The notes under the pieces were generated by a model. It searched no databases. It was not told where the DNA came from and worked only from the letters and a program-made list of their open reading frames with translations. A stretch of DNA of 38,416 bases, taken from a virus. Within the stretch, counting starts at the first letter, position 1. Each line of letters opens with the position of its first letter. The stretch spans positions 1-38,416 of IMG/VR virus record IMGVR_UViG_3300042569_002692; one strand, given 5' to 3'. Below are positions 1-12,155 of this stretch, piece after piece. A program made the position numbers and the translations under genes.

Positions 1-127
1 CGCCCGCTCCGGTGGCAACGCCCCCCCCGGTGGCGGCGGTTGATCAAGATCCGACCGATCGGTCAGATCCGACCGATCCGACCGATCTTTCCAGCGCCCC
101 GGCACCCGCGCCGCAACCCGCACCCCC
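1..127. repeat. Terminal overlap, left copy
   Basis: Bases 1-127 are identical to bases 38290-38416, and the reading frame of the giant ejection gene continues through both copies. This shows the contig is a closed circle (or circularly permuted) with 38,289 unique bases. The overlap is exactly 127 bases, a common maximum k-mer size of short-read assemblers. It is therefore more likely an assembly artefact of a circular graph than a packaged direct terminal repeat. Confidence 0.95.
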
Positions 128-3100
128 GCCCCCACCGCGCAAACCCACCCAAGCCGAGCTGGCCGAGGCCGCCTACCGTGCCGAGCTCCAAGCCGAGCTC
201 GACGCCGTCAACGAAGAGCACACCGTCGGCCTCGCCGACGCCCTGCGCCGCATCGGCGGTCTCCCCTCCAAGAAAAGCCGCCACTTCGGCGAATGGTCCG
301 GCGAACTCGCCATGCTCATCGAGGAACGCCAAGGCGCACGCAAACGCTTCGGCAACAAACGCCTCTTCGAGAACCTCTTCGACGACGAAGCCCGTTCCAT
401 GGACACTGTCGCCGAGGGCCTGCGCGAAGAAGGCTTCGACGTGGCCGGGGCCGACGACGTGTTCCGCCTAGTGGATCAGTGGATGCGGACCAACAAAGAA
501 CCCCGAGCAGCCCTCACCAACATCGGCGCCGAGGAATCCATGGCCGGGATGCCCTTCTCCAAACAGACCGGCACGGCCGACACCCCGGCGCTCCCGCCCG
601 GCGTGCTCACCCAAGCCAAGGCCGCAGTCAAAACCCTCTTTTCCCGGGCGGGCATGAACCCCTCGACCGTCTGGCACGCCAGCCCCGACGCCATTCCCGC
701 CGGGGTGGGCGGCGACCTGGTCCGCGCCGAAGCCGCCGCCGGTCGCGCCGTGGAAGGCTTCTTCCTCGGTGGCCGCGTGCATCTCGTGGCGTCCGGCATC
801 GCCCAGGGTGCCGCCCAGTTTGGCATCCCGTTTGAAACCCGGGCCCAACAGGTGGCGCTTCACGAAACCGTGGGCCACGCCGGACTCGGGGCCGTGCTCG
901 CCGCCAAAAGCCGCCGCGTTTTCAACTCGATCGTGGATGGCGTTTACACCCGGATCCCCAAAGCCGAGCTTTCCCAGATCGCCCGCGACTACCAAGCCAA
1001 CCTTGCCACCCCGCAAGGCCGTGCCGACGTGGTCACCGAATATCTCGCACGCCAAACCGAGCAAGACACCCCGCGACAAGGGGTAGTCGCCCGCGCCATT
1101 GCCAAGATCCGCGAGCTCCTGCGCGAGGTGTTCCCCAAGCTCCGCATGACGGACGGCGACATTGTCGCGTTGCTCAACGCCGCCCGCCGCCGGGTCGCCC
1201 AACGTTCGCAGCCTGCCGGCACCGCCGAGCCGATCCGGTTTTCAAAGGTGCCCACCCAGGAGCAGGCCGAAGCCGCCGCCGCGTCCCCGGAGAAACGCCG
1301 GGGCCATGTGGAGACGGTGCGCCGCATGCTGGATGTGACGCCATCCGTCTCCGACAACGTGGAGAGTTTCTACCGGGCAACCACCGCCCCGGAAGTCAAC
1401 GCCAAGGCCAACAAGACGATCGACACCGTCGGTGTGGACGAGGCCAGGGATCAGTTCATGGACAGCAAAAAGGACGACGTGGACACGCTCGCGTTGGGGC
1501 ATCACGTCGCGCTCCGGCTCCAAGCCATGGACCGCCACGCCGAAGCCACCCAGGTGCGGATCAAGATGGCGGAAAGCCTGACGTCCCCCGGCCGTATGCT
1601 GTGGTATATCTCCACCATCGCCAAGACCAGCCCGGAGGGCATCCGCCGATACGCGGAGAAGCTGACGGCAAAAGGCGCTGCCGACATGGGCCCGGAACTC
1701 AAGGCCGCTTACGAGAACATCGCCGCGCTCCAGGCCGAGCTGGCCAAGGTCAAGCGCAAGCTCGGCGCGGAGACGGTGCTGGAAATTCAAGACTACCTCC
1801 GATCCCTCAAGCTCACCCCGGAACGGCTCACCGAACTGAACACCAAACTTCGCGACGCGCTGGTGCTCAGCCCGGAGAACCCCGGGACCGCCCGGAACAA
1901 GATCGTGGGCATGCTGGTCAACTTCGGGATGGAGAACAAGCAGGCCACCAAGCTGGCCGAACAGGCGATCCGGCAGTTCACCGCCAAGGCCAAGAAAGTG
2001 CGCGAGAGCCTCATCAAGAAGATGTTGGCCGGGGTCAAAGCCCGCAAGGAACGGGTGCCCAAGAGCGTGCTGGAGAAGCTGATGCTCCTCAACAACGAGG
2101 GCAAGCTCACCGATGAGACCCTGCACGCGCAGATCGCCAAGGCGCTGGGCGTGCCGGTGTTCACGAAGGAAGCGGCGGACAAAGTCGCCAAGCTCCAGAA
2201 AGATTACGAGTCCGCGCCCGAGGGCACGATGAAGATGGTCAAGGGCGCGCAGATGCTCGAAGCCGTGCACGAGCTGGTGCCGAGTGAGTTGGCGAGCAAA
2301 GTCCGGGCGATCCAGAACATCGCGATGTTGTTCTCGGGCAAGACGTTCCTGCGCAACCCGATCGGCAACCTCGGGATGTTCCTGCTCAACTCCACGGCCG
2401 ATGCCGTGGGCGCAGTGATCGTGGACCCGGCGACAAGAATCTTTACGGGCCGCCGCTCCACCACCTCCCCGCAGTTGCTTGCCAGGATTCGCGGACTCGG
2501 GGAACCCATCCGGGTAGGCAAAGCCGGGTGGCAATGGGCCGCAGACCAAGGGTTGCCCGTGCGACAACGGTTGTCCGAGGCGCTCCGCACGGTGATCGAT
2601 ACCAGCCGGATGCTCAGTTCCCAGGTGACCGATCCAAAGCAACTCACCCAGCAGTTCCGGCACACGTTTTCCTCCCGGTTCGGCCGGATGCTGGAGGACG
2701 GGCTGGCGATTGGACTGGGCCCCGCCGACTTGGCTTTCTGGGGGAGCGCCTACCAGGCCAGCATCGCCCGGAGCATGGCGGCGGCGAAGGCCAACGGTCA
2801 GCCGCAAATCGCACCCACGGAGGCGATGGTGGAACAGGCCCTCTGGGACGCGCAACGCGCCATCTTCCAGAATGAAAACATGGTCAGCTTCACCTTCAAA
2901 AAGTTGGAGAAGCTGCTCAATCTCCCGCGGGTGGATGCCGACGGAAATTTGAAGTTGGATCGTAAATACGGATTTGGAACCGCAACGATTGCGTTCTCTC
3001 AAGTGCCAGGATCGATCCTGATGCAGGGGCTTGAGGCGTCCCCGTTAGGCGTGGTCAATGCCGTGAGAAAGATGCACGATCTCTACAATGTTCTCCACAG

Positions 3101-4271
3101 CGACAAGGCCGGGCCTGACGCAAAGATGATTTCGCAACGCCGGTTTGTGGAGGCCGCTTCAAAGGTTTTCGTGGGCACGGGTACATTCATTCTGGGAGCA
3201 ATGCTCTTGAAGCTCGGGATTATTTCCGGCGCGCCCGATGAGGACAAAGATGTGGAAGCGATGCGCCGAAACATGGGCATCGGCGGGTATTCGTTCAACT
3301 TTTCAGAGTTTAAACGCCGAATGTTGTCGGGAGATTTTACCACTCCGGCAAAGCTCCACGAAGCGTATCAAGACGGGGATGTCATGTTCACTTACGATTG
3401 GTTCCAGCCGGCCGCGTTGTCGGTCATGTTTGGGGCGGAGTGGGCGAAAAAGGAGGAGAAAATCGCAGGGATAAAAGCCAAGGGAGAAAGCGTGGTTCTG
3501 GCTTACGCCAAGACCATTTCCGACTCCGTGACTCGCCAACCCATGATGTCTGGGGTCAACCAGTTGATTCGTGACACGGCGGCTTACGGTGGGGGCGAGG
3601 CGGTGATGCGGAAGCTGATCCAGATCCCGGGCAACTTTGTGCCCGCTGTGGTGCGTCAGACCCAGCAAACCATGAATGAGACCGTCGCAGAGACCCGTGG
3701 AGGTTCGTTTGTGGACCAGGAATTGAACAAGCTGCAAGCCAAGATCCCGTTCCTCGGGGACAAATTCCCCGCCAAGCTCGATGCGTTCGGGCAAGCGGTG
3801 GAGCGTTACAACTACGGCGGAAACGGGTTCCTGAACGTGTGGCTTAACCCGTTCACAATCGCCGAAGCCAAGCGCAACCCGGCCGCGACCGAGATGATGC
3901 GGCTCTATGATGCCACCGGGAAAAAGGCTGTCGTGGCACCGATTCAGCAGCCGACGGTGCAGGTCAACGGTCAACCGTTGACACTCACGAACGAGCAGAT
4001 CGTGCAAATGCAGAACTACACGGGGAAACTCGCCAGTGAATCGATGATCCGGCTGATGAGTAGCCCGCAGTTCGCGGCGCTGCCCGATGAATACAAAGCC
4101 AAGGTGATTACAGGGGTGCTCGAAGATATTCAGAGCGCCGCGAAGATCGAGTTGCTCGGGCAACAGCCGGTGAAGGTGGACCGCTACACAGGCAACGTGT
4201 CCCGCCCGGACGATGGCACGCTCTTTATGGTGCTCCTGGGTCGGTCCCGAGGGCTCGTGCCTAGGCGGTAA
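1..4271 (+). CDS. Giant polyvalent ejection protein, C-terminal part (continues from 36672)
   Basis: This is the continuation of the gene that starts at 36672. Joined across the circle it has 1962 codons, and the last 1422 or so lie here. After a Pro/Ala-rich, PTD-repeat linker (to about residue 590 of the joined protein) there is a domain with a GRVHLVA strand and the motif HETVGH (joined residues 827-832, base 861), followed by a conserved EYLA. This is the HExxGH arrangement of zincin-like domains seen in phage polyvalent proteins. A long helical coiled region follows. The C-terminal part (about base 2300-3500) has hydrophobic stretches and TFLRNPIGN, FSQVPGSIL and TYDWFQPAA motifs that I recognise from large internal virion/ejection proteins of podophages. 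Probable role: capsid-internal protein that crosses the cell envelope during DNA entry. The protease activity is inferred only. The gene ends in TAA before a hairpin. Confidence 0.85.
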   Translation, partial: PAPVATPPPVAAVDQDPTDRSDPTDPTDLSSAPAPAPQPAPPPPPRKPTQAELAEAAYRAELQAELDAVNEEHTVGLADALRRIGGLPSKKSRHFGEWSGELAMLIEERQGARKRFGNKRLFENLFDDEARSMDTVAEGLREEGFDVAGADDVFRLVDQWMRTNKEPRAALTNIGAEESMAGMPFSKQTGTADTPALPPGVLTQAKAAVKTLFSRAGMNPSTVWHASPDAIPAGVGGDLVRAEAAAGRAVEGFFLGGRVHLVASGIAQGAAQFGIPFETRAQQVALHETVGHAGLGAVLAAKSRRVFNSIVDGVYTRIPKAELSQIARDYQANLATPQGRADVVTEYLARQTEQDTPRQGVVARAIAKIRELLREVFPKLRMTDGDIVALLNAARRRVAQRSQPAGTAEPIRFSKVPTQEQAEAAAASPEKRRGHVETVRRMLDVTPSVSDNVESFYRATTAPEVNAKANKTIDTVGVDEARDQFMDSKKDDVDTLALGHHVALRLQAMDRHAEATQVRIKMAESLTSPGRMLWYISTIAKTSPEGIRRYAEKLTAKGAADMGPELKAAYENIAALQAELAKVKRKLGAETVLEIQDYLRSLKLTPERLTELNTKLRDALVLSPENPGTARNKIVGMLVNFGMENKQATKLAEQAIRQFTAKAKKVRESLIKKMLAGVKARKERVPKSVLEKLMLLNNEGKLTDETLHAQIAKALGVPVFTKEAADKVAKLQKDYESAPEGTMKMVKGAQMLEAVHELVPSELASKVRAIQNIAMLFSGKTFLRNPIGNLGMFLLNSTADAVGAVIVDPATRIFTGRRSTTSPQLLARIRGLGEPIRVGKAGWQWAADQGLPVRQRLSEALRTVIDTSRMLSSQVTDPKQLTQQFRHTFSSRFGRMLEDGLAIGLGPADLAFWGSAYQASIARSMAAAKANGQPQIAPTEAMVEQALWDAQRAIFQNENMVSFTFKKLEKLLNLPRVDADGNLKLDRKYGFGTATIAFSQVPGSILMQGLEASPLGVVNAVRKMHDLYNVLHSDKAGPDAKMISQRRFVEAASKVFVGTGTFILGAMLLKLGIISGAPDEDKDVEAMRRNMGIGGYSFNFSEFKRRMLSGDFTTPAKLHEAYQDGDVMFTYDWFQPAALSVMFGAEWAKKEEKIAGIKAKGESVVLAYAKTISDSVTRQPMMSGVNQLIRDTAAYGGGEAVMRKLIQIPGNFVPAVVRQTQQTMNETVAETRGGSFVDQELNKLQAKIPFLGDKFPAKLDAFGQAVERYNYGGNGFLNVWLNPFTIAEAKRNPAATEMMRLYDATGKKAVVAPIQQPTVQVNGQPLTLTNEQIVQMQNYTGKLASESMIRLMSSPQFAALPDEYKAKVITGVLEDIQSAAKIELLGQQPVKVDRYTGNVSRPDDGTLFMVLLGRSRGLVPRR

Positions 4272-4314
4272 TTCAACGATTCCAAATGGATCGGGAGAGC
4301 CCGGTCGGCGTCAC

Positions 4315-4342
4315 GGCCTCGGTGAGTTTCACCGGGGCCTTT
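4315..4342 (+). terminator. Intrinsic terminator between convergent genes
   Basis: A 10-bp stem (4315-4324 with 4330-4339, one G-T wobble) has a 5-base loop and is followed by TTT then C. It sits 43 bases after the stop of the giant late gene and just before the 3' end of the oppositely oriented integrase. It therefore fits a late-operon terminator that also protects the integrase gene. The T tail is short. Confidence 0.55.
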
Positions 4343-4353
4343 CGCTGTGGCCG

Positions 4354-5526
4354 TCACAGGTCCGCCGCGCTGATGGAGGGCAGTTCCCGGAGCCGGTACG
4401 CATACCACTTTTGCGTTGTCATGACGTCCGCGTGCCGGAGGAAATCCCGAACCGCCATGATATCCCCGTTGGTCAGCTTGAGGATGAGGCTTCCCGCGTA
4501 TCGGCGCAGTTCATAGGACGTCTTGGAGCGGTCCTTGATCCAGCGACCGATCCAAGCGGAGTGCCGCCGGTCCACGATCTCGGCCCGCTCCGACTTGTGC
4601 CGGGCCGGGACGATGTGCCCGTCCGTGCTCAACGCCCGGAACTCCTCAAGCTCCGCCAGGGTATCGGCAGAGATAGGCACCCGGCCCTCATTGCCCTTGG
4701 GAGAGAAATCTTCCTCGGGCCGTTCGATGATCGCCATCACCGCGCCGCGTTCGGTGCGTTCGATCCAGTCCCACCGGGCCGCTTCGATCTCCACATTGCG
4801 CATGCCCAGCCTGGAGAACAGGAGGAACGCCACGTAACACGCGGGATCTTCCCGCTTGAGCTCCGGCGCCGCCGCCATGATCGAGCGAATCACGCCCTCA
4901 TCCAAGGCCCGAGGCAACCGGCGGTCGGGTTGCTCCACCTGCGCCCCGAGGAAACTCTTCAGATCCGGGATCTTCAGCCCCGCATCCTCATAGTGGGGGA
5001 AAAATTTCTTCCCCAGCACACACTTCGCCTTCACCCAGTTCGACGCCAGGCTGTGCGCGCTGATCTGATCCTTGCGCTCCCGGACCCATTCCCGGACGAG
5101 CGACCCCGTCAGGACCGTGAGCCGTTGTTTGTCTGGATCCCCGCCCTTGACCGACACCACCGACCGCAACGCCGCCGCGTTCTCTCGCGGGGTCCGTGTG
5201 GGCCCGCCGTGTTTGGCGTAGATCTCGAGGAGTTGCCCCACCGTCCCGTATTCCGACCGGCTTTTAGACGCCGCATCCGCCTGATGATCCCCCGACAGGA
5301 TATTGCGCACGATGACCTTGGCCCGGCTGGTGGCGATGGCCCGCACCGTGGTGCGCAGGCTGCGCAGGTAGGCCTTGCCCTTAAGCTTGAACCTCAGATA
5401 GTAACAAGACCGTTCCGGGGGATTGAATACCCGGTATGTGAGGCCCTCAACCGTGACCTGGAAACCATCCGCGTCCTCGGTTTCAGGCGTCACACTGTTC
5501 TTTGAGTCGGTTTCGAGAGAGTTCAT
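4354..5526 (-). CDS. int: Tyrosine recombinase integrase
   Basis: This 390-residue protein is the expected size for a phage integrase of the tyrosine recombinase family, which integrates and (with an excisionase) excises phage DNA at attP/attB. The N-terminal third is an arm-binding/SAM-like region. The catalytic domain shows the first arginine in GMRNVE (R243), the beta-turn lysine in FSPKG (K277), the second arginine in YELRRYAG (R341, with Tyr where His of HxxR is usual), a histidine in LRHADV (H365) and the nucleophile tyrosine in QKWYAY (Y375 or Y377). The gene is transcribed leftward and starts only 10 bases from the first arm-type repeat of the attP region. No good Shine-Dalgarno sequence precedes the ATG. 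The His-to-Tyr change in HxxR occurs in other active integrases. Confidence 0.93.
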   Translation of the reverse strand: MNSLETDSKNSVTPETEDADGFQVTVEGLTYRVFNPPERSCYYLRFKLKGKAYLRSLRTTVRAIATSRAKVIVRNILSGDHQADAASKSRSEYGTVGQLLEIYAKHGGPTRTPRENAAALRSVVSVKGGDPDKQRLTVLTGSLVREWVRERKDQISAHSLASNWVKAKCVLGKKFFPHYEDAGLKIPDLKSFLGAQVEQPDRRLPRALDEGVIRSIMAAAPELKREDPACYVAFLLFSRLGMRNVEIEAARWDWIERTERGAVMAIIERPEEDFSPKGNEGRVPISADTLAELEEFRALSTDGHIVPARHKSERAEIVDRRHSAWIGRWIKDRSKTSYELRRYAGSLILKLTNGDIMAVRDFLRHADVMTTQKWYAYRLRELPSISAADL

Positions 5527-5535
5527 TGTTTTAGC

Positions 5536-5561
5536 TGATACGCTTTTTGATACACCTTGCG
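5536..5561 (+). repeat. Integrase arm-type repeat, outer P arm
   Basis: It contains TGATACGCTTT, then TGATAC after two bases, then CTTGCG. It matches the copies at 5751-5776 and 10253-10278. It lies directly in front of the int start codon, so integrase binding here could also repress int. Confidence 0.65.
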
Positions 5562-5615
5562 TGTGTCACTTGATGTCCAAAGGCACCCTACAGCGCCCGA
5601 CAAGGTGCGCAAGGG

Positions 5616-5646
5616 AAAGCGTATCAATCAGCGGATTCTACTCTGT
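5616..5646 (-). repeat. Inverted arm-type repeat of attP
   Basis: Read on the minus strand, ACAGAGTAGA (5646 to 5637) is followed by GATACGCTTT starting at 5625 and then by CTTGCG. The order is the same as in the plus-strand arm at 5733-5776. The spacing from CAGAGTAG to GATACG is 20 bases here and 19 bases there, so the two arms form a near mirror image around the core. Confidence 0.6.
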
Positions 5647-5681
5647 AAACTGACCAAAAAGCAGGCGCTCACAGAGAAAAT

Positions 5682-5721
5682 GCCGGTATAGCTCAGTTGG
5701 TAGAGCAGCTGATTTGTAATC
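5682..5721 (+). other. 5' half of tRNA-Thr(TGU), attP core
   Basis: Bases 5682-5721 read as the acceptor 5' strand, D arm and 5' anticodon arm of a tRNA-Thr, with anticodon TGT at 5715-5717. Identity to a tRNA ends just after the anticodon loop, and no variable loop, T arm or 3' acceptor strand follows, so this is not a functional gene. It is the expected footprint of integration into a host tRNA-Thr gene near the anticodon loop. Phages more often carry the 3' part of the target tRNA, so carrying the 5' half is unusual. Confidence 0.85.
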
Positions 5722-5732
5722 CAAGCCCCCAA

Positions 5733-5776
5733 CAGAGTAGAGATGGGCTTAGATACGCTTTATGATACGACTTGCG
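5733..5776 (+). repeat. Integrase arm-type repeat, P' arm
   Basis: CAGAGTAGAG (5733-5742) is followed after 9 bases by GATACGCTTT, then TGATACG and CTTGCG. The same order and exact spacing recur at 10235-10278 inside another gene. The inverted counterpart is at 5616-5646. Confidence 0.65.
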
Positions 5777-5779
5777 TTT

Positions 5780-6124
5780 TCAACCGCCGTGGCCGTCCGA
5801 GCCGGTTGTGGGTCGGCGGTAGCGAATCCATTCGGTGCCGCGCCGGGTCGTTTCTGGGGATTTTAAAGGTTTTCCGCCGTTCTCAGCCCGCTCCAGGAGC
5901 AGGCCGAGAACGTTCAAGGCAGCCGCCGAGGGTGGGCGGTTGAGCTCCCAGCCCTGCACGGTTCGCGGGGAACAGTCGCACAAGGCGCCCACGTCGCCCA
6001 CGGAGAGCCCGAGCCGGGCCCGGATCGCCCGGAACCCGTCAGGGTAGGAGAGGACGTTGCCCGCGTCGTCCAAGATGACCGGGACGCCGTAAAGGGACGC
6101 GGGGTGGTGTAGGGTGATTTTCAT
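5780..6124 (-). CDS. Small helix-turn-helix regulator
   Basis: This 114-residue protein has a clear helix-turn-helix segment at about residues 30-75: GFRAIRARLGLSVGDV, then CDCSPRTVQGWE, then ALNVLGLLLE. It resembles the XRE-like domains of small phage and toxin-antitoxin regulators. It lies between the DUF932 gene and attP on the leftward strand, so it probably belongs to the lysogeny/integration operon and may control int or its own operon. There is no ligand or dimerisation domain beyond a short basic tail. The start is the only good ATG, and no Shine-Dalgarno sequence is visible. Excisionase/recombination directionality is an alternative role, given its position beside attP. Confidence 0.7.
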   Translation of the reverse strand: MKITLHHPASLYGVPVILDDAGNVLSYPDGFRAIRARLGLSVGDVGALCDCSPRTVQGWELNRPPSAAALNVLGLLLERAENGGKPLKSPETTRRGTEWIRYRRPTTGSDGHGG

Positions 6125-6167
6125 GGGTTTTTAGCGGTGTTTTTGCGTCCGGCTTTCCCGGCTCCCT

Positions 6168-6194
6168 ACTGCCCCCGGGGATTCCGGGGGCAGT
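6168..6194. other. Perfect GC-rich stem-loop between DUF932 and HTH genes
   Basis: An 11-bp perfect stem (6168-6178 with 6184-6194) has a 5-base loop. It lies 12 bases beyond the 3' end of the DUF932 gene and 44 bases before the start of the next leftward gene. No T-run follows on either strand. It may be an mRNA-stabilising or processing hairpin rather than a standard terminator. Confidence 0.5.
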
Positions 6195-6205
6195 GTGGGA
6201 ACCGA

Positions 6206-7126
6206 TTAGGCGGTTTTTAGTTTGGCCATTTCCTGAGCCAGGACCCAGAGGCCCCGGTTCAGTCGCACGTTTTGGTCGATCCCGGAGATTTCACGGGTCC
6301 GGCGCATTTGTTTGCGGCGCCCGTTTTCGTCGCGGAGAACGTAACTTACCCCGCCCCGGATGACGTTTTCCTGAACGGTGTTCAGGGTGGCCCAGAGGTT
6401 GGGCTCTGCGTCCGCGAACCGGCGGACTGTGAGGAGTTTTTCGGCGCTGAACGGGGGTTCCTCGGTCTCGTCGTAACGGAGAGTCAGGGCGGCCGCACCA
6501 AACGCCGCCCGCTCGCCCTCGGTGAGGCGCAGGGAGCTCCATTCGCGGACGCTCTCGCTCGCCTCGGGGAGCCGTCCGAGGATTTCAATGCAGCCGTCGA
6601 TCACTTGGGGGATGACGTCCCCGGAATGTTTGATCCGGATCTCGTTGAGGTTGTCCGCGACCACCATGCCGTTGGAGCAGACGAGGCGGAAAATGCCGCT
6701 CATGATTTGGTAACTGCTGGTGCCGTCGTGGGAGTTGACCAGGACAATCTCGTGGTGGTGGTCGCCCACTTGGGCCGTTTGGCTGGCGTGCCGGAGGCGG
6801 ATCAGGTGTTTGGTGAACGCCCGCTTTTCTTCGTCGCGGGTGCCGCCTTGCCGGACCTCAAAAGGCTCGAAGCCCTCCCGCCGGAGCGAGGCGAGAACGG
6901 TTGAGGTGGGGATGTAGGAGTATTTCTGCGAACGGGACCCGTGGGCGGTTTCCGCGAAGATGCTGGGCGCAACGGCCCGGATTTCTGAGTCGCTCAGCGG
7001 GGAGCGGGACCGGAGAACGTTTTGATTGCGGCCGAAGCGGTTGATCGAGGTGCGGGAAACGGTGGAGTTGAGGAGCGAGTGCATTTGAGTTTGCGTTTTT
7101 TTGGTTTTGGTTTTGGGTTTGTGCAT
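6206..7126 (-). CDS. DUF932 family protein
   Basis: This 306-residue protein matches the DUF932 family: LSDSEIRAVAPSIFAE, then SRSQKYSYIPT, then a REGFEPFEVRQGGTRDE region and a FTKHLIRLR segment. The family is found on plasmids, conjugative elements and phages. Its biochemical role is unknown, although it is often near recombination or replication genes. The first 30 residues are basic and low in complexity (KPKTKTKKTQTQ). The ATG at 7126 is preceded by GAGGGA very close to the codon. An internal ATG at codon 15 has no ribosome site, so I keep the longer form. It heads the leftward operon that continues to the HTH gene and integrase. The plus-strand reading frames inside it are shadows. Confidence 0.85.
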   Translation of the reverse strand: MHKPKTKTKKTQTQMHSLLNSTVSRTSINRFGRNQNVLRSRSPLSDSEIRAVAPSIFAETAHGSRSQKYSYIPTSTVLASLRREGFEPFEVRQGGTRDEEKRAFTKHLIRLRHASQTAQVGDHHHEIVLVNSHDGTSSYQIMSGIFRLVCSNGMVVADNLNEIRIKHSGDVIPQVIDGCIEILGRLPEASESVREWSSLRLTEGERAAFGAAALTLRYDETEEPPFSAEKLLTVRRFADAEPNLWATLNTVQENVIRGGVSYVLRDENGRRKQMRRTREISGIDQNVRLNRGLWVLAQEMAKLKTA

Positions 7127-7155
7127 TCCCTCGGCGTTTCGCCTTGGGTTTGCGT

Positions 7156-7195
7156 CCCCCGGTCAGCCGTTCGAGCGGCTGGCCGGGGGTTTTTT
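7156..7195 (+). terminator. Strong intrinsic terminator, rightward, without an obvious upstream gene
   Basis: A 14-bp stem (7156-7169 with 7176-7189, one G-T wobble), a 6-base loop and six T residues make a textbook rho-independent terminator for rightward transcription. The only gene upstream of it is DUF932 on the other strand. It would therefore stop antisense transcripts coming through DUF932. For leftward mRNA it is a hairpin in the 5' leader. Confidence 0.85.
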
Positions 7196-7198
7196 GTC

Positions 7199-7382
7199 GG
7201 TTGCTTTTGGCTAGTGTCTCCCGCCGGAGCGGAGAGGTTTTGCACAGCGGACTTGCTATCGACAGGGCACACTCTACGCAAAAAGGCGCAACAGGCAAGC
7301 GGAATGTTGCGTTTTTTTGCGCAATGCCCGCGAATGCTGATTGGAGCTTGATTTGCGGGCGATGGTTTGCGCATTGAAAACC
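7199..7382. promoter_or_regulatory. Control region between DUF932 and the membrane protein gene
   Basis: This 184-bp stretch has no gene. A possible leftward promoter reads TTGCCT, 16 bases, TAGAGT on the minus strand (7298 to 7271) and would give a leader of about 140 bases before DUF932. Motifs of the type GCGCAA/TTGCG recur at about 7286, 7303 and 7314, including TTGCG-N8-CGCAA. The same motifs occur in the repressor switch at 8220-8301, suggesting a shared regulator. The promoter call is weak. Confidence 0.4.
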
Positions 7383-7787
7383 ATGCGAACGATCCGTTTT
7401 TGCGCTGTTTTGGTGGCGGTCTGCGCGGTTTTTGCCGTGGGTGTCGCGGTAGGTGGAGCCGGGCAGGTGTTCCAGCGGTTCCAGATCGTGACTCACTCGG
7501 GGCAGGCGGCGGGGATTTCGCACCGGCTCGACCGTTGGACGGGGGAAACGTGGGTGTGCATGCCTGCAGTACACCCGGGGAGCCGTTGGCAGTGGCATCC
7601 CATGCCCGTGGCCGGATACCCGTGGGAGGCGGCGCAACCCGTCGCGGCGCAGCCTGTGCCCCAGGCTTTTCCGCAGCCATCTGGAAACGTGCAGTTTTTG
7701 CCGACACCGCCGCCGGTGGATGGGGCAATCCGGATCCAAAACGGCCACAGCTACCGATACAACGCCCAAACGCAGCAATGGGAGTAA
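7383..7787 (+). CDS. Membrane-anchored protein with GHxYxYNAxTxxWE tail
   Basis: This protein of 134 residues starts at ATG 7383. Alternative starts lie at 7362 or TTG 7341, and none has a clear ribosome site. Residues 1-27 form a single hydrophobic N-terminal segment (signal anchor). It is followed by a small domain with RLDRWTGETWVC and W..HP, a pattern seen in short hypothetical proteins, then a Pro-rich stretch. The end reads GHSYRYNAQTQQWE, which matches the end of the internal virion protein at 35901-36668. It is the only plus-strand gene among leftward lysogeny genes, and its stop codon directly abuts the stop of the repressor gene. I infer a prophage-expressed envelope protein, for example a superinfection-exclusion factor. 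The function is not established. Confidence 0.7.
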   Translation: MRTIRFCAVLVAVCAVFAVGVAVGGAGQVFQRFQIVTHSGQAAGISHRLDRWTGETWVCMPAVHPGSRWQWHPMPVAGYPWEAAQPVAAQPVPQAFPQPSGNVQFLPTPPPVDGAIRIQNGHSYRYNAQTQQWE

Positions 7788-8219
7788 CTACGCCTTGCGG
7801 ATAACCGCCAATATGCTGCGGATCGCCTGCCACACGCCGGGATCCGTGGCAATGTGCTCGCAGAGCCACTCAATCGCCGCAGACTGCTCGCGCGTGCATT
7901 TGGTGGAATAAGGCGGGGGCTCCTCGGAAACGAGCATTTGAGAGGACTTTCTCGCGGCAACCAAATCGACCACGCGCACCAAATCCGCCGCGTTGGTGGG
8001 GAGTTCGTCGCGCAGATGAGCGGCGGCCAACGCCGCTTTGTCTTGGGGCTCTTCTAGGGCAGCAATCAGCTTTTGGAGGTGCTCGAATCGTGGCCGGTGC
8101 TGGCCGGTGAAATAGCGGTGGATGTTGGAGGGCTCCAGCCCGGCCATCCGTGCGAGATGAGCCTGCGGCCAGTTGTGGCGGTCCAGGATGAGTTGCAGGG
8201 CGTTGGAAAATTGGCTCAT
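7788..8219 (-). CDS. XRE-family repressor (CI-like)
   Basis: This 143-residue protein has an N-terminal Cro/CI-type helix-turn-helix at about residues 5-55: ALQLILDRHNWPQAHLARMAGLEPSNIHRYF, then RPRFEHLQKLI. A helical C-terminal half could dimerise. There is no LexA-like protease domain, so induction would not follow the RecA-cleavage route. Its location, divergent from the early rightward genes with a short control region between them, makes it the best candidate for the lysogeny repressor. I place the start at ATG 8219. The upstream TTG at 8237 would add six residues. No Shine-Dalgarno sequence precedes either, so the mRNA may be leaderless, as for lambda cI from its maintenance promoter. 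Confidence 0.85.
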   Translation of the reverse strand: MSQFSNALQLILDRHNWPQAHLARMAGLEPSNIHRYFTGQHRPRFEHLQKLIAALEEPQDKAALAAAHLRDELPTNAADLVRVVDLVAARKSSQMLVSEEPPPYSTKCTREQSAAIEWLCEHIATDPGVWQAIRSILAVIRKA

Positions 8220-8301
8220 GCATTGAAGAAAACGCAATAACGCTCAGCGCGCAACTTTTCTCTTGCGCGGTTGCGGTGTGCGCTTTATTGCAATTTCCGC
8301 A
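8220..8301. promoter_or_regulatory. Divergent repressor/early switch region
   Basis: This 82-bp region separates the repressor gene from the first rightward early gene. It contains the 7-bp inverted repeat CGCGCAA-N8-TTGCGCG (8248-8254, 8263-8269) and further TTGCG/CGCAA copies at about 8233 and 8271, which are good operator candidates. A possible rightward promoter is TTGCGC (8263-8268) with TTTATT (8284-8289), spacer 15. It would start transcription almost at the ATG at 8302. The operators are inferred from position and symmetry. Confidence 0.55.
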
Positions 8302-8481
8302 ATGAGCGACACCAAACTTGACCTAATGACAAAGCTGCGAGACCTGGTGCAGGGCCTCGCTCACGCCCAAGGATGCTCCGCTGAGCAGCGACTGCTCCTC
8401 GCTAAAGAGGAAATCCGCTACACCCGCCAAATCGCCAAATTAGAGCGGCCTAAAGCCGCTCGTCAGGAGGCCGTGAAATGA
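8302..8481 (+). CDS. Small early protein (59 aa)
   Basis: This is the first rightward gene after the switch region. It is charged and helical (DLMTKLRDLVQGLAHA, then EQRLLLAKEEIRYTRQIAKLE) and probably a coiled coil. I do not recognise a family. By position it corresponds to a cro-like or early regulatory gene, but no helix-turn-helix is visible. The start at 8302 has no Shine-Dalgarno sequence and lies within a few bases of the predicted transcription start. Its TGA overlaps the ATG of the next gene (ATGA). Confidence 0.6.
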   Translation: MSDTKLDLMTKLRDLVQGLAHAQGCSAEQRLLLAKEEIRYTRQIAKLERPKAARQEAVK

Positions 8482-8660
8482 GCGGCGGGGATGTTTTTCT
8501 GGCGGTGTTCCTGCTCGGGGCGATCACGTCGCTGCTGCGGTGGAGGCTGGATGTCGCGTGGAGAGAGGGGAACCGGCAGGGGTTGGCCACCGGCTATCTC
8601 GACGGGCGGCGCGCAGAGCGGGCCGACCAGGAGCGCATCCGGCAGGAGGTGGCCCGATGA
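8478..8660 (+). CDS. Small membrane protein (60 aa)
   Basis: It has one N-terminal membrane segment (about residues 5-20, VFLAVFLLGAITSLL) followed by a basic, Arg-rich helix. It is preceded by AGGAGG and overlaps both neighbours through ATGA, so it is translationally coupled in the early operon. Function unknown. Confidence 0.6.
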   Translation: MSGGDVFLAVFLLGAITSLLRWRLDVAWREGNRQGLATGYLDGRRAERADQERIRQEVAR

Positions 8661-8935
8661 GATACGCTGTTTTTTCCATGCTGGCTGCGGATGCTCCGTG
8701 GGCCATGTGTGTGGGCATGGCCATGCTCGTGAACGACGCGGAGGCCATGGCCGCTCGATCACTGGCCGAGGGGCGTGTGGTCTCGATACGCAGCATCTCA
8801 CATGCAGAGGCGCAGCAACTGGCCTCGCTGGACACCTGGTGCGCATGGGTGCGGGCCAACGAATTGCCGGGGATCGAGTTTTTGCCCGTCCTCAATCGTC
8901 ACGGATGGCCGCTGGACGAGGAGGGCGAGCGATGA
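8657..8935 (+). CDS. Hypothetical early protein (92 aa)
   Basis: I start this at ATG 8657, which follows a good AGGAGG site and overlaps the preceding stop, rather than at upstream in-frame starts. The protein is compact, with MRYAVFSML at the N-terminus, an Ala/Met-rich helix and LPVLNRHGWPLDEE near the end. No family is recognised. The stop overlaps the next gene. Confidence 0.55.
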   Translation: MRYAVFSMLAADAPWAMCVGMAMLVNDAEAMAARSLAEGRVVSIRSISHAEAQQLASLDTWCAWVRANELPGIEFLPVLNRHGWPLDEEGER

Positions 8936-9168
8936 TGTTTCTCCTTTTTGCCTCTTACGGGGGCGACACGGGTTTTTTTGTGGGGTCGTTTTTCGACCGA
9001 GCCGACGCGTTGACGGTGGCCCAGAGTCGGAAATCAGCCGGTGAGGCCGTGTCTCTGCGGTCTCTGGAGGCAATGGACGCCCGGCAGCGGCTCTCGACGA
9101 TGGCCGGAGCGGCACGGGCATTTTTTTCGCCCATGGCAACCCTCCCAGGTGAGGAGGTGCCGTTATGA
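8932..9168 (+). CDS. Hypothetical early protein (78 aa)
   Basis: It begins at ATGATG (8932 or 8935). The N-terminus is hydrophobic and aromatic (FLLFASYGGDTGFFVGSFFD), followed by a helical region. The C-terminal codons form the GAGGAGG ribosome site of the next gene, and its TGA overlaps that gene's ATG. No family recognised. Codon use fits the neighbours. Confidence 0.5.
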   Translation: MMFLLFASYGGDTGFFVGSFFDRADALTVAQSRKSAGEAVSLRSLEAMDARQRLSTMAGAARAFFSPMATLPGEEVPL

Positions 9169-9368
9169 GCCGGGCACCCGCCATCGACGGACTGGAGATG
9201 ATGTATACGCCCGCGCAGATCGCGGCGGTGTACCAACTCCACCCGCGCACGATCTCCCGAGAGATCCAGCGGGGCAACCTCAGGGCCGAGAGCATCGGCG
9301 GAGAGCTCCGCATACCGGCCAGCGCGCTGGTTGCCTGGAGGCGCAGCAACAACCCGCTGCCAAACTAG
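9165..9368 (+). CDS. Excisionase-like MerR-type helix-turn-helix protein
   Basis: This 67-residue protein consists almost entirely of an HTH_17/excisionase-type winged helix: MYTPAQIAAVYQLHPRTISR, then EIQRGNLRAESIGGELRI, then PASALVAWRR. Proteins of this type act as excisionases (Xis) with tyrosine integrases or as small regulators. It is far (about 3.4 kb) from attP but within the early rightward operon, which suits expression after induction. A second protein of related fold lies at 18656-18853, so which one serves int is uncertain. A GAGGAGG ribosome site precedes it. Confidence 0.75.
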   Translation: MSRAPAIDGLEMMYTPAQIAAVYQLHPRTISREIQRGNLRAESIGGELRIPASALVAWRRSNNPLPN

Positions 9369-9373
9369 CACCC

Positions 9374-9490
9374 GTGCGGATTCTGACCACCCCTCCGCAC
9401 CGCCTGACACTGGCGCAGCTCCAGACGCTGCGCTCCCGGCCTGCCATGGCCGACGCATACGCCGCCCGTTGGCGCGTCTGCCTTTTTTAG
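9374..9490 (+). CDS. Possible 38-aa ORF in the 9369-9539 gap
   Basis: The 171-bp gap contains one GTG-initiated frame of 38 codons (MRILTTPPHRLTLAQ onward, ending WRVCLF) with no ribosome site. Its end overlaps an imperfect hairpin (GACGC at 9452 pairing with GCGTC at 9474) followed by CCTTTTTTAG, which could instead be a weak rightward terminator. I see no other feature in the gap apart from a T-run near 9515. Confidence 0.22.
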   Translation: MRILTTPPHRLTLAQLQTLRSRPAMADAYAARWRVCLF

Positions 9491-9539
9491 CGGCTCGCCC
9501 GCCGCCGTTCATTTTTTTTTGCCCATTTCCGGCCCCCTT

Positions 9540-10373
9540 ATGTCTCGACCAGAGGACAGCCTTATTGCACGACGCGCCGAGCAGGTTGCTTCCGCGCCCC
9601 CTCTTTTTTCGGAGGAGGTTTTGGATGCGCTGGCGAGTGCAGAGGCTCGGGGAGAGTTTACGGGCGAGCGCCTTTTTTCGCAGCGCCCGGACATATACAG
9701 AGCCGTTGTCGAGCTGCTGGGGCAGGGCGTCGGCGTTCGCCAGATCGCCCGCACGCTGAGAGTCTCGCACAACACTATTGCAGCCGTCCGTCACAGAGAG
9801 GGCCAGACTGTAGACACGCTTAAAGAGCAGACCATTGCCACGCTGGCGCGGTTTGTCGGCGCCGCATCCGAGCGCCTGCTTGAGGAGGTCCAGACGATCA
9901 AACTAGAGAGCCTGCCCGTCGCCCTCGGCATTGCAGCGGAGAAGCTGCTCCTCCTCTCCGGACAGGCAACGCAGCGCATCGCCCACGTTGACGAGGCCCC
10001 ACAGGTCCCAGCGTTCGCGGCCTGGTTGCAGGAGAAAAAGGCGGATGCCGTCGAGATCGAGTCCGAGACCGTTTCAATGGGTTTCTCTGGGGGAGTTCGC
10101 GCACAAAGGGCGAGCGCCGCGGCTGAGGCTGGCGCCGGATCGGAGCGGGCAGAGACGGCGGTTGACCAGGCAGCGCCGACGGACGGCGTAGAGCGGGCCG
10201 CTGATTCTGAATCAGCTGCTTTTGGTGACTTGTCCAGAGTAGAGGCCTCGACTGATACGCTTTGTGATACGCCTTGCGCCTCGGAAACGGGCACGGCAGG
10301 CCCGGAAACGGCACCTTCTCGGCGGCGGAAACGGCAGGCCTCAGAGGGGGGGCGGGGGTCGAGCGTTTCGTGA
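9540..10373 (+). CDS. Helix-turn-helix phage protein (277 aa)
   Basis: Start chosen at ATG 9540. Residues about 55-90 (IYRAVVELLGQGVGVRQIARTLRVSHNTIAAVRHREG) form a clear helix-turn-helix of the Hin/IS21-like type. A helical region with LPVALGIAAEKLLLLSGQATQRI follows, which I have seen in other phage HTH proteins of this size. The last 90 residues are low-complexity and probably disordered (Ala, Glu, Ser). The protein could be a transcription regulator of the replication block or a terminase small subunit, since no other small terminase candidate stands out. The disordered tail is encoded by the att-like element at 10200-10278. Confidence 0.7.
   Translation: MSRPEDSLIARRAEQVASAPPLFSEEVLDALASAEARGEFTGERLFSQRPDIYRAVVELLGQGVGVRQIARTLRVSHNTIAAVRHREGQTVDTLKEQTIATLARFVGAASERLLEEVQTIKLESLPVALGIAAEKLLLLSGQATQRIAHVDEAPQVPAFAAWLQEKKADAVEIESETVSMGFSGGVRAQRASAAAEAGAGSERAETAVDQAAPTDGVERAADSESAAFGDLSRVEASTDTLCDTPCASETGTAGPETAPSRRRKRQASEGGRGSSVS
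10200..10278 (+). repeat. Second att-like element inside the HTH gene
   Basis: Bases 10200-10216 form a perfect 5-bp stem with a 7-base loop (GCTGA, TTCTGAA, TCAGC) resembling a tRNA anticodon arm and the attP core. From 10235, CAGAGTAGAG is followed after 9 bases by GATACGCTTT, then TGATACG and CTTGCG. This is the same order and exact spacing as the P' arm at 5733-5776. Core-like and arm parts are 35 bases apart here and 25 in attP. No mirror-image P arm is visible on the left. Confidence 0.6.
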
Positions 10374-10428
10374 CCCCCCCCATCCTTAGCAACCATCACC
10401 CCTTTCGGAATTTCTGACAAAGACACCC

Positions 10429-10920
10429 ATGATTACCACCCTACTCGAACGCGACTTCGCAGAGGCCCTCGGGCTGCGCGAGGAACACATCCGCGCCCTC
10501 CGAAAGGCGCATCTCACCGAAGGCCTCCACTGGAAAAAGGAGGGGCGGGACATTGTGTTGTCCGAGGCAGGGCAGGAAAAAATCCGCGCCGTTCTGGAGC
10601 TTGAAAAAACGCCCCAAAAAAAAGACGGCGCGGAGGGGTCGCCAGTGGCGCAGGGGGACGCACAGGGCGTGTCTGACCCCGTGCCCGCTGTGGTGACCCT
10701 CTGGGTGGTGTCCAAGCCGCAGAATCCCCGCGTCCTGTGGTGCAGCGACGTCGAGCCGACGCTGTGGGTGGAAAAAAAACCGCCCGCCCTGCTCACCGTG
10801 CGGGTGAGGTCGTCTGAGAATTTCCGGCCCCGGATGGCGCTCCGGGCCCGGCCGTGTCCCGTGCGCCCCAACACATTTGACCTTGAGGGCCGGTGCCCTC
10901 GCTTCCCTGGGAGATACTGA
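10429..10920 (+). CDS. Phage protein with N-terminal helix-turn-helix-like region (163 aa)
   Basis: The N-terminal 60 residues (RDFAEALGLREEHIRALRKAHLTEG, then HWKKEGRDIVLSEAGQEKI) look like a small DNA-binding fold. A linker and a C-terminal part follow, with TVRVRSSENFRPRMALRAR and the ending LEGRCPRFPGRY, a small beta domain pattern found at the end of several phage proteins upstream of replication genes. I do not know its function. Its stop overlaps the ATG of the replication initiator gene, so the two are coupled and may cooperate at the origin. Confidence 0.6.
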   Translation: MITTLLERDFAEALGLREEHIRALRKAHLTEGLHWKKEGRDIVLSEAGQEKIRAVLELEKTPQKKDGAEGSPVAQGDAQGVSDPVPAVVTLWVVSKPQNPRVLWCSDVEPTLWVEKKPPALLTVRVRSSENFRPRMALRARPCPVRPNTFDLEGRCPRFPGRY

Positions 10921-12155
10921 TGCAAACGAAAATCGACCCTGAAATCTGGACCACTTGGCGGCCCTATCCCGTCGAAACGCGGATGGCCATGATTTGGATG
11001 CAGACCAACCCACGTCTCACGACCGCTGGTTACTGCCTGGCTGAGAAAGACCTGTTCGAATTTGAGACCAAGCTGGATTGGAGCGACTTCGAGCGCGCTT
11101 GCGAGGCATTCGGAGACGAAATCTTCATCATCCCCGAAAAATCAAAAGCCGCATCTATGCCGGATGCATGCGGTATGCATGCCGCATCTATGCCGGATGC
11201 ATGCGGTATGCATGCCGCATCTATGCCGGATGCATCCGGTATGCATGCCGCATCCATTCCGAGAGCATCCGAGAAGCCTGCTCCCCTCATTTCACGGCGG
11301 TATTGGATCAAGAGTTTCATCCGGAAACAATACGCTCAAGACGGTCCTTCCCTCTGTAAAAGCAAGGTTTCAGGGGCGATTGTGAGGGCTGTGGTCGCGG
11401 CTCACAGCGAGCCATTGAAAGCCGCCGTTCTCGCCGAATACCCGTCTCTCAAGCCTCTTTTCTCTTCTTCCTCCGACGAAAAAACCACCACCTCCGGATG
11501 CGGTATGCATGCGGTATCCATACCGCATGCATACCCCAGGAGAGGAGAGGAGAGGAGTGGAGAGGAGAGGCATGGAGAAGAGGGATTCCAAAGGGAGAGC
11601 CAAGAACCTCACGAACCCTCTTCTCCCGAAAATAAAAAACCCGGGGCGCCGGAGGACATCGCCACCGCCCAGGAAGTCCTTGCCCGACTCGGATCGCTTT
11701 TGGGCCGCAAAAAAAATCAGCGGGCTACCAACATTGAGGAAGTCCACGCCATGAAGGCCCACGTCTCCTTTGAGGATCTGAGTCTGGTCGAGGCCTGGTT
11801 CATGGCAAACGCGGACGATTCGAAGTTTTACCCGCCGCAGACCCTCGTTTCGTTCATCCAGAACTTTCAAGGGCAGGTCGATCGGGCTCGGAAGTTCTTC
11901 GCCCAGAACCCGGAGTCGATGCCCTCCGAAAGCACGGGAAAAAAATTCGGGCGCGCCGAGGAACCCCTCAACTGGCGGGAAGCCCTGCTCGAAAAATATC
12001 CCGGCGCCCTCACCGGCCATTGGCGGTCGTGGTGGGACGTGGACAAGGAGCTCCGCCGGGAGTTCCCGCAATTCCCTCTGCACGAGACCGTCGTGAAAAA
12101 AAACAACGCGGCCCCGGAACCCGCCGTCCGCGACCTCACCCCTGCCGAGGCCTAA
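10920..12155 (+). CDS. Replication initiator (lambda O / DnaD-like winged-helix protein) carrying the putative origin
   Basis: This 411-residue protein starts at ATG 10920 with GGGAG upstream. Residues about 15-75 (TRMAMIWMQTNPRLTTAGYCLAE, then WSDFERACEAFG) and 128-160 (RYWIKSFIRKQYAQ, then VSGAIVRAVVAAH) match the two parts of the winged-helix domain of phage replication initiators. Between them lies an 11-residue tandem repeat (residues 77-109). A second DNA repeat and a Gly/Glu/Arg-rich stretch occur at residues 195-225. The C-terminal part (about 235-411) has helical segments and would contact or load the helicase. The DnaB gene follows after one small gene, the classic order initiator then helicase. 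Binding to the internal repeats is inferred from the lambda O precedent. Confidence 0.75.
   Translation: MQTKIDPEIWTTWRPYPVETRMAMIWMQTNPRLTTAGYCLAEKDLFEFETKLDWSDFERACEAFGDEIFIIPEKSKAASMPDACGMHAASMPDACGMHAASMPDASGMHAASIPRASEKPAPLISRRYWIKSFIRKQYAQDGPSLCKSKVSGAIVRAVVAAHSEPLKAAVLAEYPSLKPLFSSSSDEKTTTSGCGMHAVSIPHAYPRRGEERSGEERHGEEGFQRESQEPHEPSSPENKKPGAPEDIATAQEVLARLGSLLGRKKNQRATNIEEVHAMKAHVSFEDLSLVEAWFMANADDSKFYPPQTLVSFIQNFQGQVDRARKFFAQNPESMPSESTGKKFGRAEEPLNWREALLEKYPGALTGHWRSWWDVDKELRREFPQFPLHETVVKKNNAAPEPAVRDLTPAEA
11148..11246. repeat. ori: Origin-like iterons, three 33-bp tandem units
   Basis: Units at 11148-11180, 11181-11213 and 11214-11246 are identical except for one base in the third. A degenerate fourth begins at 11247. 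Each holds the palindromic GGATGCATGC/GGTATGCAT core. In protein they encode AASMPDACGMH. Iterons inside the initiator gene are the arrangement of lambdoid origins. There are no unique spacers, so this is not a CRISPR array. Confidence 0.7.
11502..11535. repeat. 34-bp palindrome related to the iterons
   Basis: Bases 11502-11517 and 11520-11535 are perfect 16-bp inverted repeats separated by CC. They share the GGTATGCATGC motif with the iterons 250 bp upstream. They lie directly in front of a purine-only-strand tract, as expected for an origin structure or a second initiator-binding site. Confidence 0.65.
11538..11587 (+). repeat. Strand-asymmetric GGAGA tract
   Basis: An almost pure purine stretch of GGAGA repeats encodes the RGEERSGEERHGEEG segment of the initiator. 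Purine tracts beside iterons are seen in lambdoid origins, where they help unwinding. The same low-complexity coding pattern occurs in other phage replication proteins, so the function is uncertain. Confidence 0.5.

Follow-up and report, generated by a model that had tools for sequence, protein, structure and literature searches.

A candidate integrase-binding half-attachment site inside an early gene of a probable Chthoniobacterales phage and its relatives

INTRODUCTION

In the usual view, the integrase of a temperate phage acts at the attachment (att) sites attP and attB and at their recombination products, and any regulatory role is limited to promoters that overlap an att site. Known precedents for att-site proteins that act as regulators are IntS of prophage KplE1 and Apl of phage 186. 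In the autoregulation by IntS, as in the int/Vis system of P4, transcription is repressed by the integrase when it occupies core and arm sites (PMC2951348). For tyrosine integrases that use the anticodon arm of a tRNA gene, the overlap is normally the anticodon loop (PMC8371274), and overlap identity is normally required, with exceptions named (PMC10865867).

Here, we analyzed a virus contig of 38,416 bases (IMG/VR record IMGVR_UViG_3300042569_002692, taken at its full length and called the window), in which one side of the attP of a tyrosine integrase (Int) recurs inside a helix-turn-helix (HTH) gene named HTHb. We call this second element site 2. A comparison of sequences, chiefly of metagenomic contigs, leads us to regard it as a rather likely Int-binding half-att site that would be blocked for recombination and would regulate the early operon or excision.

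RESULTS

Site 2 resembles one side of attP and lies in the tail of HTHb

The elements compared in the window are the following.

5682 to 5721, plus strand: attP core, 40 bp, equal to the 5' half of the host tRNA-Thr(TGT) gene and ending just beyond the anticodon loop
5733 to 5776, plus strand: P' arm of attP, with the CAGAGTAGAG box and the arm pair GATACGCTTT/TGATACG
9540 to 10373, plus strand: HTHb gene, with a conserved HTH/helical N-terminal part and a hypervariable tail that holds site 2
10200 to 10216, plus strand: core of site 2, GCTGATT-CTG-AATCAGC, with the tRNA-Thr anticodon stem as its two half-sites and a different center
10235 to 10244, plus strand: CAGAGTAGAG box of site 2
10254 to 10278, plus strand: arm pair of site 2, GATACGCTTT-G-TGATACG-C-CTTGCG

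A preliminary description of this DNA had reported that the P' arm (CAGAGTAGAG-N9-GATACGCTTT-N-TGATACG-N-CTTGCG, at 5733-5776) recurs in direct orientation at 10235-10278 with identical order and spacing. The recurrence was found at both places, and order and spacing were indeed the same for the blocks of the arm. The distance from the core to the arm was not: 36 bases separate the core from GATACGCTTT in attP and 46 in site 2, and this difference of 10 bases is about one helical turn. When the window was scanned with the 44-mer on both strands without gaps, 33 of 44 bases were identical at 10235-10278, against 26 at the runner-up place (background mean, 10.7; standard deviation, 2.8). The anticodon-arm-like hairpin described at 10200-10216 is present and is more than a hairpin, being also a core-type site. 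The anticodon arm of the target tRNA-Thr reads GCTGATT-TGT-AATCAGC, and site 2 has CTG instead of TGT at its center. Site 2 of the window therefore has a core and a P' arm, with no P arm. Its placement in an HTH gene was correct as a gene call, though the Pfam matches of this gene are weak. A predicted structure of the HTHb core (predicted local distance difference test score, 68) gave generic HTH matches only, none of them with an E value of ≤0.001.

Site 2 follows the integrase and its target tRNA across the HTHb family

A search with an alignment of HTHb returned 37 loci. The family, made up of uncultured viruses that probably infect verrucomicrobia, is broadly syntenic (a large gene, int, attP, HTHb, DnaB, and terminase), and the Int proteins of distant members are 25 to 29% identical to that of the window. 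In relatives with both genes on one contig, int and HTHb are 4 to 6 kb apart. The comparison with relatives that had been proposed in the preliminary description gave 24 records with a half-att site in the variable tail of HTHb (the window included, and some carriers being near-identical to each other), and about one-third of the HTHb relatives were found without one. In the carriers, an anticodon-stem palindrome is followed on its right by a P'-type arm pair. The Thr class has a GCTGATT-N3-AATCAGC core, TGATACG repeats, and the arm word TGATACGCTTT; the Arg classes have a TCTGAT-N5-ATCAGA core with the arm word GCCACTTTG or GGGGACAACTT; and the Lys class has a TTGAT-N5-ATCAA core with the arm word GCCACTT(TG). 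Two records, L149 and L156, are Arg-type (TCTGATTTGCAATCAGA).

The phage's own attP could be read in 12 carriers, and in all 12 the half-sites and the arm words of the tail agreed with it. Cognate-match scores were 18 to 21 of 21 in each of these phages, and the maxima for dinucleotide shuffles were 15 to 18 in the seven carrier tails tested. When the pairings of attP and tail were permuted among the 12 phages, none of 200,000 trials reached the observed total, and when each of the four att classes was reduced to a single representative, the score was 83 for the true pairing and 76 for the best alternative; these pairing statistics are not strict probabilities because the phages are related. 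A chance origin of site 2 was rejected by the 44-mer scan and the cognate-matching scores.

The geometry of site 2 was also compared with that of attP. The core-to-arm spacing in the tail equals that in the phage's own attP, so that the attL-like spacing is strict, in 5 of the 12 phages (45/45 in L147, L156, and L159; 49/49 in L155 and L157). It is approximate in the others, with shifts of +2 in two (49/47 in L153 and L154), −8 in three (40/48 in L132, L151, and L152), and +10 in two (46/36 in the window and L010). The codon frame of the core is constant over 24 of 24 records, and the core has the inverted repeat with cognate half-sites that is characteristic of a lambda-type attP. Arm words are nearly restricted to attP and the HTHb tail, and in the tails they are found only to the right of the core, so a complete attP with arms on both sides is not present there. 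HTHb of L134 and that of L149 are 98% identical next to the tail, yet the former has a Lys cassette and the latter an Arg/GGGGACAACTT cassette; therefore, the cassette was swapped within a conserved gene.

Other palindromes were seen in HTHb tails. In L129, a contig with no recognizable int, GCAGATT-CGG-AATCTGC at 5736-5752 could represent site 2 in a phage that targets a different tRNA. Several tails that lack site 2 have the palindrome GTTAT[C/G]-N5-[G/A]ATAAC after GGAA (L131, 7825; L135, 8674; L137, 8686; L142, 6631; L106, 10760). This GTTAT-N7-ATAAC palindrome occurs once per locus and not at the attP of these phages.

The center of site 2 does not match the overlap

In all 12 phages, the center of site 2 differs from the overlap shared by attP and the tRNA gene. 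Since these letters are scrambled, strand exchange with attP and with attB would be expected to fail, and site 2 is predicted not to be recombination competent with either. Strong binding of Int would be expected, because the half-sites reproduce the cognate anticodon stem perfectly and are accompanied by the cognate arm pair. The half-sites are the stronger argument for Int, as the arm words might be bound by Int or by the excisionase-like protein. Cognate half-sites together with scrambled crossover letters suggest regulatory binding of Int and not recombination.

Site 2 is conserved as DNA

Among the close relatives of the window, three (L007, L008, and L010) cover site 2 in full, and L009 ends inside it. 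Between 10226 and 10320, L007 differs from the window at 22 positions, none of which is among the 32 motif positions (hypergeometric P, 2.6e-5), and several of these 22 differences alter the protein. The codons of the motif are rare in the window (GCT, 7%; TCT, 7%; TCA, 7%; AGA, 4%; GTA, 2%; ACT, 5%), according to a codon table that took in one wrong-frame open reading frame (7870-8223, 117 codons) and some unchecked ones, with a small effect expected. In 24 of 24 records, the right half-site has TCA for Ser, although TCA makes up only 2 of the 71 Ser codons counted over the 30 preceding codons and about 7% of the Ser codons in the window. Because the differences spare the motif positions and the motif codons are rare, the pattern points to selection on site 2 as DNA and not as a peptide. 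Mimicry of another tRNA (e.g., tRNA-Gln, with the loop TTCTGAA) was rejected, the central base being T, G, or A among close relatives and different in each of L007, L008, and the window.

Gene setting of site 2

The preliminary description had placed genes for an HTH protein, DUF932, a membrane protein, a repressor, and an excisionase-like protein between attP and site 2. The genes found there agree with it: they encode an HTH protein, DUF932, a protein of short length, a repressor of the Cro/C1 type, and an HTH_17/excisionase-like protein. Site 2 is part of a rightward gene run, which we infer to be one operon; in this run, the excisionase-like gene precedes site 2 and the replication genes follow it.

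9165 to 9368, plus strand: excisionase-like HTH_17 gene (PF12728, E value of 2.3e-9; phrog_66 excisionase, E value of 1.3e-6)

A hairpin of a G run and a C run is present family-wide at the 3' end of HTHb (window, 10341-10386; L147, 8725-8765; L155, 8675-8712), with RNA fold z-scores of −0.7, −2.5, and −0.8, respectively. Possible explanations are a terminator, a slippery run, and a coding coincidence.

Integrase, attP, and likely host

The integrase gene and the P side of attP in the window are as follows.

4354 to 5526, minus strand: int, tyrosine integrase of 390 amino acids (phrog_1 integrase, E value of 9.9e-18; phrog_216, E value of 1.3e-13)
5535 to 5561, plus strand: outer P-arm pair CTGATACGCTTTTTGATACACCTTGCG, immediately upstream of int, of direct repeat family D1 and kept in relatives
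5616 to 5645, minus strand: inner P-arm unit, with TGATACGCTTT at 5616-5626 and CAGAGTAGA at 5637-5645, both words on the minus strand

A direct terminal repeat of 127 bases makes it probable that the window (G+C content, 63%) is the complete genome of a phage, with a length of about 38.3 kb. In a scan of a set of genomes from 84,980 species, Int had one homologue (46% identity over part of the protein), which was found in a metagenome-assembled genome of the Chthoniobacterales. Among 213 genomes from this order, 7 contain the exact 40 bases of the attP core; in these 7 they are the 5' half of a tRNA-Thr(TGT) gene and run on into the remainder of an intact tRNA-Thr. On the basis of these two results, the host is probably a verrucomicrobium of the order Chthoniobacterales. 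No match to Int or HTHb was found by tblastn among 50,697 phage records.

The attP of the window (5682-5721) corresponds to the 5' half of its tRNA gene, and those of the Arg and Lys relatives correspond to the 3' half. A 5' half, in this case of tRNA-Thr(CGT), is also present in the attP (8845-8905) of L162, an unrelated phage in IMG/VR. With such a 5'-half attP, the integrated phage would need to provide the tRNA promoter.

Mosaicism of the window

The window consists in part of blocks with nearly 100% identity to different relatives (1-5785 with L006, 8638-10225 with L007, and 10232-10924 with L008). This identity breaks off abruptly at 5785 and again near 10225, and other joints (6124, 10924, and 13917) are common to several relatives. 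A recombination hotspot at the core of site 2 was rejected: over 154 phage pairs there was no peak at the core, despite the joint in the window, and this joint is therefore not relied on here.

DISCUSSION

How site 2 might act

The interpretation that we favor is that the layout of site 2, a core with P'-type arms, equals that of one prophage end and is kept in coding sequence by selection on DNA. Int would bind there with no productive recombination and, from a position that follows the excisionase-like gene and precedes the replication genes, could tune the decision between lysis and lysogeny. One option is that plentiful Int on site 2 hinders transcription into the replication genes; another is that site 2 competes for Int with the prophage end that bears P', so that excision would be damped. 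Regulation by integrase bound at the second site had been mentioned in the preliminary description as an alternative to recombination, and it is this alternative that the comparisons favor.

Several results weigh against this interpretation. The copy of site 2 in L010 is degraded, with point changes in both core and arms. The relatives with no site 2 are L106, L107, L128, L130, L131, L135 to L139, L142, L143, and L145, and three of them (L131, L135, and L139) share the arm words of their Arg attP with carriers; therefore, site 2 is not essential to this type of integrase. A scan of 10190-10280 with the sigma-70 consensus found no promoter-like sequence, though host promoters may differ. In addition, some tyrosine integrases accept mismatches in the overlap (PMC10865867).

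Other explanations

The last point bears directly on an excision switch, in which Int would join attP, or a prophage end, to site 2 and remove 4.5 kb with the repressor and the excisionase-like gene, as the preliminary description had proposed. The direct orientation, the cognate core and arms, and the immunity genes in between all fit such a switch, and tolerance of mismatches could permit it. However, the central letters of site 2 vary freely and differ from the attP overlap in every one of the 12 phages, no deletion form was found among the relatives, and a search of IMG/VR with the deletion-junction sequence matched only the attP of the unrelated phage L162. This excision is therefore unlikely, and we give the switch very little weight. 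The related suggestion that the two sites are the trace of how a lysogeny cassette was gained is contradicted by the retention and retuning of site 2 across the family. Mutually incompatible overlaps would instead suit a natural cassette exchange, in which attP and site 2 flank the immunity module, each site recombines with its own kind in another phage, and Int swaps the module. The centers TTGCA, TCGTT, ACCGA, and ATAGG each recur in several phages; the window switches from L007 to L008 identity at about 10190-10231, around the core of site 2; and the identity to L006 stops at 5785, adjoining the P' arm. Nevertheless, over the 154 pairs the identity jumps are most frequent about 100 bp to the left and to the right of the core, with a dip at the core itself, the joint with L006 is past the P' arm and not at the core, joints are frequent throughout these genomes, and L007, L008, and the window do not share a central base. 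We consider such an exchange improbable. Recombination for some other purpose, such as resolution of phage dimers or concatemers between two copies of site 2, would leave the center free to vary between phages, as copies of one genome share their overlap; yet attP could serve for this, the arms of site 2 are on one side only, and nothing in the data points to such a role, which makes it slightly less probable still.

A further explanation takes the palindrome as an RNA hairpin, or the repeats as binding sites of the excisionase-like protein or the HTH protein and not of Int. The palindrome can fold as RNA, and direct repeats at att and likewise at early promoters are bound by recombination directionality factors, Apl of phage 186 being one of these (PMC7498355). 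This explanation is about as improbable as the natural cassette exchange: the fold is no better than that of shuffled sequences (z-score, −0.5), the arms of the palindrome change with the target tRNA (Thr, Arg, or Lys) as those of integrase core sites do, and the core-to-arm spacing follows attP. Least probable of all is that site 2 is a decaying leftover of an old attP duplication or of aberrant recombination. The degraded copy in L010 and the many relatives that lack the site are what a relic would leave, but the half-sites are intact in nearly all of the 24 records, and the arms match the current attP of each phage despite Int identities of 25 to 29% and a changed target tRNA. Because site 2 tracks its integrase in this way, the relic is largely refuted.

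Implications and comparison with known systems

In its general form, the proposal that Int is a regulator of lysis and lysogeny through a dedicated, recombination-proof half-att site, retuned whenever the integrase or the target tRNA changes, is tentative, and we put its chances at somewhat under even; a less likely form of it is that attP and site 2 are an incompatible pair for exchange of the immunity module. If the proposal is true, sensing of the Int level takes place at another point of the genome, in a range of phages that have only about one-fourth of their integrase residues in common. A scan for P'-arm words outside attP allows other temperate phages to be checked from sequence alone. 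The literature searched, which excluded most subscription journals, contained no comparable integrase half-site, so that newness is not established.

One close likeness is to the attL of lambda-type, heterobivalent tyrosine integrases, which has the same inverted repeat over a short overlap and the same one-sided arm repeats at a set distance. Such an attL is recognized by the phage's own Int, and site 2 probably is too. Unlike attL, site 2 is located within an early gene 4 to 6 kb from attP and not at a prophage end, and it has two perfect half-sites around an overlap that differs from those of attP and attB alike. Recombinase-mediated cassette exchange, a man-made system that uses incompatible overlaps, likewise has two sites of one recombinase with mismatched overlaps and a cassette in between; in contrast to that system, there is no evidence of exchange at attP and site 2. 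In KplE1 and P4, the site of repression is the attachment site that overlaps the int promoter, whereas site 2 is a second site far from int.

Phage 186 Apl and the P2-type directionality factors show that a recombination protein can have sites at att and a second set in the early control region, where it acts as a regulator (PMC7498355). Those second sites serve a directionality factor and lie between the lytic and lysogenic promoters, whereas site 2 has an integrase core with arms and lies in a gene. An Apl-type array has several direct repeats at a spacing of 10 to 11 bp between early promoters; site 2 has one pair at 12 bp and a core palindrome. Finally, the attachment sites of phage-inducible chromosomal islands that are embedded in helper phage late genes (PMC10111431) are, like site 2, integrase targets inside a phage gene. 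They are targets of a satellite integrase, and a satellite attB is a bare core with no resident arm sites, whereas site 2 carries the arm words of the resident phage's own attP.

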